DNA of 64,000 nt, from the NCBI RefSeq assembly GCF_000526515.1, contig NZ_JAGF01000001.1, forward strand, positions 4,092,001 to 4,156,000. Reading direction: 5' to 3'. Under the pieces are notes generated by a model that did not search any database, was not told where the DNA came from, and was given only the letters and a program-made list of their open reading frames with translations. The translations under genes were made by a program, and so were the position numbers. Positions 60,138 through 64,000 of this stretch are shown one piece after another; the stretch's first letter is position 1, and every line of letters begins with the position of its first letter. Source of the DNA: Cellulomonas sp. KRMCY2 (GTDB taxonomy: Bacteria; Actinomycetota; Actinomycetes; Actinomycetales; Cellulomonadaceae).

Positions 60138-61604
60138 TCAGCCGTCCGCGGCGGCCCGGTCGCCCGTGCCGAGGTCGGCGACCGCGTCGACGAAGGCCTC
60201 GCCACGGTGGGTGTAGGAGCTGAACTGGTCCATCGACGCGGACGCCGGCGCGAGCAGCACCGTGTCACCCGGGCGGGCGAGCCGACGGGCCTGGGACACG
60301 GCGCGGTTCATCACCGTCCCAGTGTCGGTCGGATCGATCGACACCACCGGGATTGACGGCGCGTGTCGGCCGAGCGCCTCACGCCACGGCGTCTGGTCCA
60401 CCCCGATGAGCACCACGGCGCGCAGGCGGTCGGCCCGGGCGAGCACGAGGTCGTCGAACCGTGCGCCCTTGGCCAGGCCACCGGCGATCCACACCACGGA
60501 GCCCGCGGCGAACGCGGCGAGCGAGGCCGCCGCAGCGTGCCCGTTGGTCGCCTTGGAGTCGTCGACGTACCGCACGGCACCGACCGTCGCGACGTGCTCG
60601 ATCCGGTGCGCGCCGGGCCGGTAGCTGCGCAGACCGTCCCGCACCGCCGCTTCACCCACGCCGTGCGCGCGGGCCAAGGCAGCCGCGGCCAGCGCATCGG
60701 CGACCACGTGCCCGGCCACGCGAGCATCGGGCCCGGCGAGGTGTGCGAGATCCTCGAGCGTGGCGAGCTCGGCCGCGAAGCCGGCCCGCGACGGGTCGCC
60801 CGCAGGTGCGTGGAACGCCCGGTCGACCAGGATCCCGTCGACGACCCCGAACCGGCCCGGTCCCGGCGCGCCGAGCGTGAACCCGACGGCGTGCGCGCCC
60901 TCGGCGACGTCGGCGTCGCGCACGAGGCCCTCGACCCGCTCATCGCCCACGGGGTACACGCAAGCGACCTCGACCCCCGCGAAGATCCTGGCCTTGTCCG
61001 CGACGTACGCCTCGAACGAGCCGTGCCAGTCGACGTGGTCGACGGCGATGTTCAGGACCGCCGCCGCCTGGGCCGCCATCGTGTGCGTGAAGTGCAGCTG
61101 GAAGCTCGAGAGCTCGACGGCGAGCACGTCGTTCGTCGGGTCGGTCGCCGCCTCGAGGACCGCCGCGCCCACGTTCCCCACGGCCGGCCCACGCTCACCG
61201 GCAGCCGCAAGGATCGCCGCGAGCATGCCGACGGTCGTCGTCTTGCCGTTCGTCCCGGTCAGGACGAGCCACGGTGCCGGGCCGCCGCCCGCCGACCGGT
61301 CGACCCGCAGGCGCCAGGCGAGCTCGACCTCGCTCCAGACCGGGATGCCGCGGCGGGCGGCCTCGGCCAGCACGGGGGCGGACGGCGGCCAGCCCGGGGA
61401 GGCGACCACCAGGTCGACCGCGCCGAGGTCCACCTGGGCGGCATCGGCCAGGTCGGCGTCCGGAGCCCGTGCGTCCAGGGTCACGACGGCCGACGGGCCA
61501 CGGCCCTGTGCGGCGCACGCGGCCAGTGCGGCGACGACCGCCCGTCCCGTGACCGCGAGCCCCGCGACGAGCACCCGCTGCCCGCGAAGGTCGAGGTCGG
61601 CCAC
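60138..61604 (-). CDS. murD: UDP-N-acetylmuramoyl-L-alanine--D-glutamate ligase
   Basis: A 488-residue Mur ligase adding D-glutamate. LRGQRVLVAGLAVTGRAV is the N-terminal domain, LVLTGTNGKTTTVGML the P-loop, AVELSSFQLHFT and NIAVDHVDWHGSFEAYV the central signatures, and VDDSKATNGHAAAASL and LLAPASASMDQFSSYTHRG the C-terminal domain. The GTG at 61604 overlaps the mraY stop by one base (TAGTG). It is somewhat longer than the E. coli enzyme. Confidence 0.96.
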   Translation of the reverse strand: MADLDLRGQRVLVAGLAVTGRAVVAALAACAAQGRGPSAVVTLDARAPDADLADAAQVDLGAVDLVVASPGWPPSAPVLAEAARRGIPVWSEVELAWRLRVDRSAGGGPAPWLVLTGTNGKTTTVGMLAAILAAAGERGPAVGNVGAAVLEAATDPTNDVLAVELSSFQLHFTHTMAAQAAAVLNIAVDHVDWHGSFEAYVADKARIFAGVEVACVYPVGDERVEGLVRDADVAEGAHAVGFTLGAPGPGRFGVVDGILVDRAFHAPAGDPSRAGFAAELATLEDLAHLAGPDARVAGHVVADALAAAALARAHGVGEAAVRDGLRSYRPGAHRIEHVATVGAVRYVDDSKATNGHAAAASLAAFAAGSVVWIAGGLAKGARFDDLVLARADRLRAVVLIGVDQTPWREALGRHAPSIPVVSIDPTDTGTVMNRAVSQARRLARPGDTVLLAPASASMDQFSSYTHRGEAFVDAVADLGTGDRAAADG

Positions 61605-62686
61605 TACCCGGCCACCCACTCCGTGTAGAAGATGCCGACACCGCCGGCGACGAACAGGCCGGCGATGATCCAGAACCGGATGACGATCGTGACCTCGCCC
61701 CAGCCCGAGAGCTCGAAGTGGTGGTGCAGCGGGGCCATCTTGAACACCCGTCTGCCGGTCAGCTTGAAGAAGCCGATCTGGATCACGTCGGAGAGCACGA
61801 CGAGCACGAACATGCCGCCGATGATCGCCGCGAGGATCTCGGTGCGGGACAGGATCGACAGGCCGGCCAGGGCGCCACCGAGGGCGAGGGCCCCGGTGTC
61901 CCCCATGAAGATCTTGGCCGGTGAGGCGTTCCACCACAGGAAGCCGAAGCACGCTCCGGTGATCGCCGCGGCGACGATCGCGAGGTCGAGCGGGTCACGC
62001 GTGTCGTAGCAGCGCGCACCCGCCGTCACGAGGTTCTGGCAGCTCTGGTTGGACTGCCAGACCCCGACCAGGACGTACGCGCCGAAGACGATCAGCGAGA
62101 CGCCGGTCGCCAGGCCGTCGAGGCCGTCGGTGAGGTTGACCGCGTTCGACCAGGCAGTGATCAGGAAGTTCGCCCAGATGACGAAGAGGATGACGCCGAG
62201 CGTCGTGCCGGCCCAGGCGAGGTCGATGTTCGTGTCCCGGATGAACGAGATCCGGGTCGAGGCCGGGGTGCGGAAGTTCTGGTTCGGGAACTGCAGGGCG
62301 AGCACCGCGAAGGCCAGTCCGATCAGCCCCTGACCGACGATCTTCCATCGGGCCGACAGGCCGAGACTGCGCTGCCGCGAGATCTTGATGAAGTCGTCGA
62401 GGAACCCGACCACGCCGAGCCCGGTCATCAGGAAGATGACGAGCATCGCCGACGCGCTCGGCCGGTTGCCGGTCACCAGCCCCGCGCCGCTCCAGCCGAT
62501 CAGGGTCGCGATGATGATCACGACGCCGCCCATCGTCGGCGTCCCACGCTTGGTGAAGTGCGCGGTCGGGCCGTCCTGGCGGATGAACTGGCCGTACTGC
62601 TTACGCACCAGGAAGCGGATGAACAGCGGGGTGGCGAGCAGCGCCACGAGCATCGACAGCCCGCCGGAGATCAGGACAGCCCTCAT
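61604..62686 (-). CDS. mraY: Phospho-N-acetylmuramoyl-pentapeptide transferase
   Basis: A 360-residue membrane transferase forming lipid I. Ten membrane helices are seen. [38 protein letters not shown] (active-site Asp pair), [15 protein letters not shown] and [14 protein letters not shown] are the four cytoplasmic signatures, and [12 protein letters not shown] the His loop. The ATG at 62686 overlaps the stop of the upstream Mur ligase (ATGA). Confidence 0.97.
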
Positions 62687-64000
62687 CCGGCTGTCACCTC
62701 GCTGCCGGCGAGGTCGTCGGCAAGCCCGGACAGGCCGGCCTCCGGTGCGGCCTTGACCAGGACGACGTCACCGGGCCTGAGCTCGTCGGCCAGCCACGCG
62801 GCCGCGGCCTCGACGTCCGGCAGGATCCGCGTCTCCTCACCGAAGGAGCCCTCCTGGAGGGCGCCGGTGTGGATCGCGCGGACGGTGTCCCCGACCACGA
62901 CCAGACGGGCGATGTTCAGGCGGACGGCGAGGCGCCCGACGGCGTCGAACGCGGCGATCGCGTCCGGCACGGCCATCCCGCGCACGTCCATCGCACCGAG
63001 CACCGCGATGCTGCGGCGTGCACCGCTGCGTACCGCGAGGTCACGGAGCGCGATCCGCACGGTGTCGGGGCCGGCCTCGCCCGACTCGTCGATCACTGTC
63101 ACGCCGTCCGCGCGCTCGGTGACCCGGGAGACCTGCGGTCCCGACGCGGAACCTGCGTCACCGTGCTCCGGGTCGATGAGCTGGTCGGCGACGGCGAGGA
63201 AGACCTCGCGGTCGTTGTACCGGTGGAAGACGCCGGCGATCTCCTGCGTGGGCTCGTGACCCTTGCCCGTGACGATCACCGTGTCCTGGTCTCCGGCGAG
63301 GCCGACGGCGAACCTGATCGCCTCGGCGCGCGAGGGGGCCTCGTGCACGTCGTGCAGGTCGGGCCGCTCGGCGCGGACACCGTCGAGGATCGCGGCACGG
63401 ATCTCCTGCGGTGGCTCGGAGCGAGGGTTCTCGTCGGTGACGACCAGGACGTCGGCCAGCCGGGCCGCGATCTCGCCCATCATCGGTCGCTTGCCCCGGT
63501 CGCGGTCCCCGTCCGACCCGAACACGATCACCAGGCGCCCGGGGGTGATCGGCCGCACGGCCTCGAGCGCCAGCACCAGGGCATCCGGGGTGTGCGCGTA
63601 GTCGACCAGGCACAACGGCAGGCCACGGCCGCGTTCGACGACGCGCTCCATCCGGCCCGGGATCGCGTGCGCCGTCCCGACCGCCGTCGCGGCTGCGTCC
63701 AGCGCGATGCCGGCGCGGTATGCGAGCACGACGGCGAGCGCTGCGTTGGAGACGTTGACCAGCCCGGGCAGGGGGCTCGCCGCCGCGACCTGCTCACCGT
63801 CCGGCCCGGAGAGGGTGAACGTCGAGCCGACGCCGTCCAGCCCGATCGTCGCGTCGGAGACCCGCCAGTCGGCCGTCGCCGCGCCGACCGAGCCGTCGCG
63901 CGTGGCCACGGTGTCCACCGGGATCCTCGCCTCGGCGGCGAGCCGGACGCCCCAGGCGTCATCGACGCACACGACGCCCCGGCGGGCGCTCTCGGGCGCG
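62683..64000 (-). CDS. murE: MurE ligase fused to a MurF-like C-terminal domain (N-terminus beyond window)
   Basis: Partial: the gene begins beyond 64000. The visible part starts in the MurE central domain ([48 protein letters not shown]) and continues through a complete MurE C-terminal domain ([51 protein letters not shown]). After [15 protein letters not shown] the reading frame runs on for about 150 residues resembling domain 3 of Mur[69 protein letters not shown]. MurF's P-loop and central domain are not between them, and mraY follows at once. Confidence 0.85.

Follow-up and report, generated by a model that had tools for sequence, protein, structure and literature searches.

MurF is regarded as an essential, soluble enzyme and a drug target, and two described departures from the standard Mur ligases come closest to the arrangement reported here for Cellulomonas sp. 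KRMCY2, in which an open reading frame (ORF) for MurE, at the end of a 64,000-nucleotide stretch of contig NZ_JAGF01000001.1 (positions 4,092,001 to 4,156,000, hereafter the window), runs in frame into the third domain of MurF. The first is the bifunctional MurE-MurF (PRK11929/NF008896), represented in the excerpts of PMC6420597 by Bordetella pertussis, in which MurE is likewise followed by in-frame MurF sequence in one polypeptide; the window fusion differs in having MurF domain 3 only, without the MurF ATPase domain or the YNANP and HRM motifs. The second is MurT of MurT/GatD, a Mur ligase that, in the excerpts of PMC6085368 and PMC6113224, lacks the uridine diphosphate (UDP)-binding domain 1, as does a further protein of the window genome, an apparently membrane-bound MurF-like protein termed TM-MurF here. 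According to the same excerpts the substrates that MurT/GatD amidates are lipid II and lipid I, not UDP-linked precursors, and it was argued for MurT that a UDP-binding domain, had it been present, would be likely to clash with the membrane (PMC6113224). The likeness of TM-MurF to MurT rests on the loss of domain 1, and TM-MurF differs in having its own predicted membrane helices and in adjoining Ddl and a hydrolase. Set against canonical MurF (TIGR01143), the tail of the fusion is homologous to domain 3 and TM-MurF to domains 2 and 3, whereas the tail lacks domains 1 and 2 and the motifs, and TM-MurF has a membrane module instead of domain 1. Neither bifunctional MurE-MurF nor MurT fits the window system, and among the papers listed in searches of PMC, which does not cover subscription journals, none was noted on a membrane-bound MurF from Actinomycetota or on a MurF domain-3 stump. 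We consider it probable (roughly 0.62) that MurF catalysis was displaced by TM-MurF and that domain 3 was retained for a non-catalytic, probably docking, role.

The ORF at 62683..63999 (minus strand) is open at the window edge, and in the whole genome it forms a single frame of 688 amino acids (aa) with a GTG start equivalent to window position 64749, 749 bases outside the window end (L020:8684-10750). The C-terminal portion of MurE occupies 63190..64000 and is followed in frame by a tail of 161 aa (62686..63168), the stop of which overlaps by 4 bases (62683-62686) the start codon of mraY (61604..62686), all on the minus strand; the name mraY was read from the sequence without a family search, as were murD, ftsI, murA, plsC, gpsA and thiL. 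The fusion protein passed the cut-off of the MurE model NF001124 (510.3 bits, cut-off 476), and its tail passed that of Mur_ligase_C, PF02875 (44.9 bits, cut-off 28.4), and matched positions 287-417 of the murF model TIGR01143 (E 5e-14), which was matched by all 10 tails of the genus. A profile built from these tails gave MurF chains as its top four matches among solved structures (3zl8 at 2.9e-4; 1gg4, 4qdi and 4ziy at 0.005-0.009). A single-sequence model of the tail alone was poor (predicted local distance difference test score, pLDDT, 55.6) and Foldseek returned no PDB match for it at E ≤ 0.001. The protein missed the cut-off for bifunctional MurE-MurF, NF008896 (478.6 against 1023 bits), and no second middle ATP-binding domain (PF08245) was found in its 688 aa, the sole such stretch being that of MurE (residues 135-343). 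This confirmed the description in the earlier note of MurE carrying about 150 residues of MurF domain 3 at its C-terminus, with mraY overlapping the stop.

The genome assembly consists of a single contig of 4,495,232 bases and is 99.98% complete, and none of its frames reached the TIGR01143 cut-off of 288.6 bits. An assembly or frameshift artefact masking a complete murF, for which the odd gene order is the sole argument, is practically out of the question, as the earlier note had held of an assembly deletion, as the fusion recurs in 10 of 19 genomes of the genus with differing linkers and the 4.5-Mb contig is complete. PF02875 had six matches in the genome, namely MurE, the tail, MurC and MurD (both named by position), one further ligase and the best MurF-like frame of the genome (185.7 bits), which lies at 3153285, 1 Mb from the fusion. 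The prediction that a MurF must lie elsewhere held in that this frame exists; it is not a relocated murF but the distinct TM-MurF type with its own Ddl.

A survey of related genomes, which the earlier note had called for, found the same domain order in the ten fusion genomes just mentioned, with a separate MurF that passed the TIGR01143 cut-off in each of the other nine (in one of these, the draft G143, murF was found and murE was not). At the intact loci with clear starts, the overlaps of murE with murF and of murF with mraY are 4 bases each, and the mraY overlap is retained in the fusion. Domain 3 of the intact MurF is 59-63% identical to the fusion tail (eight intact genomes compared), about 320 MurF codons are deleted, and the part that was kept starts close to HRM, which two intact MurF have at residue 324 or 323, with a linker sequence that varies between fusion lineages. 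Since murE and murF are distinct genes in the relatives with intact loci, the fusion is best described as an in-frame loss of MurF domains 1 and 2 across the murE/murF boundary; for the same reason the suggestion that it is the relic of a murE-murF fusion with a lost catalytic centre had to be abandoned, there being no bifunctional enzyme to decay.

The motifs HRM, YNANP and (M/L/G)ELG are present in all eight same-genus intact MurF compared and in none of the ten tails; we take HRM and YNANP to be MurF enzyme motifs. At 63061..63081 (minus strand) the window tail reads GEAGPDT as the degenerate counterpart of YNANPDS, and an alignment of the 10 tails with 8 intact MurF bears out the divergence of the domain that had been read from this change. 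The lysine closing GDVVLVK is kept in 3/10 tails and lost in 7/10. Because key motifs are gone, the stump is predicted to ligate nothing. The best-kept motif is QEGS (62845..62856, minus strand, in the window), followed by W in seven tails and F in three, plus E, and the W form is found in 8/8 intact MurF; the conserved core of the tail reads VRL...(R/K)L..VG...RA...GA.QEGS(W/F)..E, then D, W and GDV.LV. This core is kept under purifying selection, with a ratio of nonsynonymous to synonymous change (omega) of 0.22-0.37 for the tails in seven close pairs (0.14-0.21 for MurE), where codon positions 1 and 2 changed 2.0-3.3 times less than position 3; the factor was 1.4-1.6 in an eighth pair (G113-G000). 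The tail may also be a passive relic that has no function of its own and stays open as part of the essential MurE and because its stop lies within the mraY start overlap, a reading that takes in the idea of translational coupling alone, under which the tail must fold and must not frameshift. Such a relic agrees with the loss of HRM and YNANP from every tail and with a nonsynonymous rate (dN) about twice that of MurE in close pairs, and sits badly with an omega below 0.4 in 7/7 close pairs and with position 3 being the most changed in 8/8 pairs; on these and the points given below, we regard it as possible but rather unlikely.

TM-MurF has predicted membrane helices where MurF has its UDP-binding domain 1, and retains the MurF ATPase domain and domain 3. 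Its model (pLDDT 94) had MurF as best structural match and showed the fold of the MurF middle and third domains; residues 1-161 are helical without strands, and the first 90 or so were hardly covered in the structure comparison. Domain 1 was not detected, with no PF01225 match and a TIGR01143 match that begins at 43, and the 185.7 bits of the window protein are below the curated cut-off of the model. The P-loop, the domain 2 lysine and DD..N.NP of domain 3, which are features of MurF enzymes, are conserved in 48 aligned sequences and stand in columns that vary little or not at all among 36 sequences. The membrane module gave no Pfam match at E 0.1 for the window protein and scattered single-member matches for 30 sequences, and its profile found no credible relative in the PDB (best E 0.0014, over 21 residues). 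TM-MurF is the sole MurF candidate in most of the TM-MurF genomes tested, with a putative D-Ala-D-Ala adding activity. Alternatively, the tail could still function as a third domain, in trans with TM-MurF or as part of a split MurF: it sits on the enzyme that produces the MurF substrate, the TIGR01143 match of same-genus TM-MurF reaches position 387 at most of a model length of 418, and three tails keep the closing lysine. We consider this improbable, as TM-MurF carries its own domain 3 (DDTYNANP in the window genome, with a conserved NDLPDH end), HRM and YNANP are missing from every tail and the lysine from seven, and other lineages have TM-MurF but no stump.

Within the genus, TM-MurF was found in all 10 fusion genomes and in 0/9 intact genomes. 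A profile of its N-terminal part matched at least 16 of 396 genomes sampled from the phylum, a lower bound as in most genomes only nine candidates were scored, and a single N-terminal sequence gave seven matches in 396 genomes of the order, two of them weak (G187, E 6e-4; G014, E 9e-4) and scored as lacking TM-MurF, both genomes having canonical MurF. Among the best 80 of at least 566 relatives, long matches came from metagenome-assembled genomes (MAGs) of Acidimicrobiia, Candidatus Actinomarina, Gulosibacter, Yonghaparkia, Nocardioides YR527, a Modestobacter MAG and others; named contigs past L168 were dropped, as they matched in the ATPase part only. A MurF over the cut-off was present in 0/22 TM-MurF genomes against 22/22 others in one sample, and in 0/5 against 4/4 in a second. 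Among 37 further TM-MurF genomes, mostly MAGs, a single one (Nocardioides YR527) had such a MurF; L162 and L168 were left out of this check as partial sequences, and L200 was checked and is not TM-MurF. Two others of the 37 deserve mention, G523 with a full-length MurF below the cut-off (259.7 bits) between murE and mraY, and the doubtful G545 with a near-full-length match of 129.8 bits. TM-MurF is thus usually the only MurF found, and a few genomes have both kinds, a stage to be expected in the course of a displacement. Nocardioides sp. YR527 (L300) and G523 (L301), with ordinary MurF and TM-MurF together, are possible intermediates. On plasmids, 2/72,556 records were matched by TM-MurF, both under annotated murF and at 22-44% query coverage.

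The gene for TM-MurF lies in an operon in the order alpha/beta hydrolase, TM-MurF, Ddl. The hydrolase is directly upstream in 49/51 loci, the two misses being at contig ends, and Ddl is downstream in 42/51; of the nine loci without it, four are at contig ends, one has Ddl on the other strand and four have room but no Ddl. The intact genomes G050, G079 and G107 have an ordinary ddl between gpsA and thiL, and in intact G089 ddl and thiL were seen up to the contig end. In the window genome and three relatives (G113, G008 and G066), the gpsA-thiL slot instead holds the operon and a second, convergent Ddl. The operon is likewise located between gpsA and thiL in Yonghaparkia and two Microbacteriaceae MAGs, which fits a possible transfer by recombination through the flanking genes. 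In the window genome, outside the window, the hydrolase gene preceding TM-MurF is at L021:4021-4872 and the two adjacent convergent Ddl genes are at L021:6410-7600 and L021:7706-8665; the same pair is present in the fusion loci compared, and the intact relatives have a relative of the second Ddl (42-46% identity) elsewhere than in the ddl slot.

Stumps that are not fused to MurE were found in other genomes with TM-MurF. In three Gulosibacter-type MAGs (G513, G518 and G548) murE and mraY are separated by a stand-alone frame of 144-177 aa, counted from the first possible start, which consists of MurF domain 3 without YNANP and HRM, with the motif VRLN(V/I)HHL(I/V)VVGE....MH..AE(Q/H)EGSW.GES. These frames matched NCBIfam weakly (best E 1.5e-4, to the MurE/MurF model; G548 had another family as best match), and they were assigned by BLAST matches to MurF domain 3 (E 7e-15 to 2e-14), by position and by alignment. 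Between G513 or G518 and G548 the divergence is 0.19-0.21 at codon positions 1 and 2 and 0.50-0.55 at position 3. Yonghaparkia Root332 has a longer stand-alone stump at the same site (216 aa from the first ATG, E 1e-24) that includes the end of domain 2 and carries GLEGSWDGES. The window clade formed one group (0.985) in the TM-MurF tree and was joined there to Gulosibacter/Yonghaparkia (0.954); these two are sisters, so their stumps may stem from one event, while the stump of the window clade is separate from theirs in its fused anatomy and in the divergence of MurE (41-43% identity). The unfused stumps keep a similar motif and cannot have been carried along by MurE, which makes a non-catalytic role that was retained more likely than a plain relic; the domain may also be a new regulatory or tethering one, as the earlier note suggested. 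In canonical MurF from other genera (n=17), EGSW was present in 15, with QGSW in G229 and neither in G198; EGSW was also found in 18/18 same-family MurF fragments and in G523, and was not found in the MurF of Nocardioides YR527 or Paractinoplanes, and the motif is thus not needed everywhere for MurF catalysis. In family f19, five MurF above the cut-off (L334, L335, L337, L339 and L341) gave no YN(A/S)NP in a pattern search.

We propose that the ancestor of the clade had murE, murF and mraY as adjacent genes, and that the operon of alpha/beta hydrolase, membrane-bound TM-MurF and Ddl was gained at the ddl locus. TM-MurF would then have assumed MurF catalysis, and the resident murF would have lost domains 1 and 2 in the deletion that joined MurE to domain 3. 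The stump most probably keeps an earlier docking role of MurF domain 3, holding MurE at a membrane site of MraY, MurG and TM-MurF; contacts of MurF with MraY and MurG in other bacteria are cited in the excerpts of PMC6420597. Several observations weigh against displacement with a retained docking role. Tail omega exceeded MurE omega in every close pair and was 0.45-1.00 in 38 distant pairs, values that are weak given large synonymous change and GC-rich composition. In a tree of murE, mraY, murD and ftsI from 18 genomes, the intact G079 (L219) fell within the fusion group, and a single fusion clade was not rejected (approximately unbiased test, p-AU 0.177), so that one or more deletion events may have taken place. 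G079 has intact murF and ddl, and its position may reflect regain, repeated deletion or weak resolution. No residue of MraY or MurE differed consistently between the fusion and the intact genomes, and the co-occurrence of fusion and TM-MurF in the genus may reflect a single event. The stump was absent from 3/3 genomes of f17/g50, where MurE meets MraY directly, and from 4/4 other TM-MurF loci of the dcw (division and cell wall) cluster (G525, G530, G544 and G549), all titled Acidimicrobiia or Acidimicrobiaceae; its role is hence dispensable in some lineages, as a passive relic would lead one to expect, although the direct junction in f17/g50 also indicates that coupling needs no domain.

Displacement with a retained domain 3 could be part of a wider change, for which the analogy with MurT is suggestive: TM-MurF might act at the membrane after MraY and add D-Ala-D-Ala to the tripeptide in its lipid-linked form (lipid I or II), altering the order of stem-peptide assembly in a branch of the Actinomycetota, and MurF domain 3 might have a second, non-catalytic job, centred on the actinobacterial EGSW, that outlived the displaced catalysis. 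We put this combination forward tentatively and think it doubtful as a whole; it is at least as likely that the membrane module of TM-MurF binds UDP-MurNAc-tripeptide. The apparent displacement of MurF by a form that is membrane-bound and lacks the UDP-binding domain raises the question of whether the last stem-peptide step can use a lipid-linked precursor, and in the stumps nature has set MurF catalysis apart from any scaffold role. Should domain 3 prove important in the absence of catalysis, a piece of 150 residues would make the suspected Mur complex testable.
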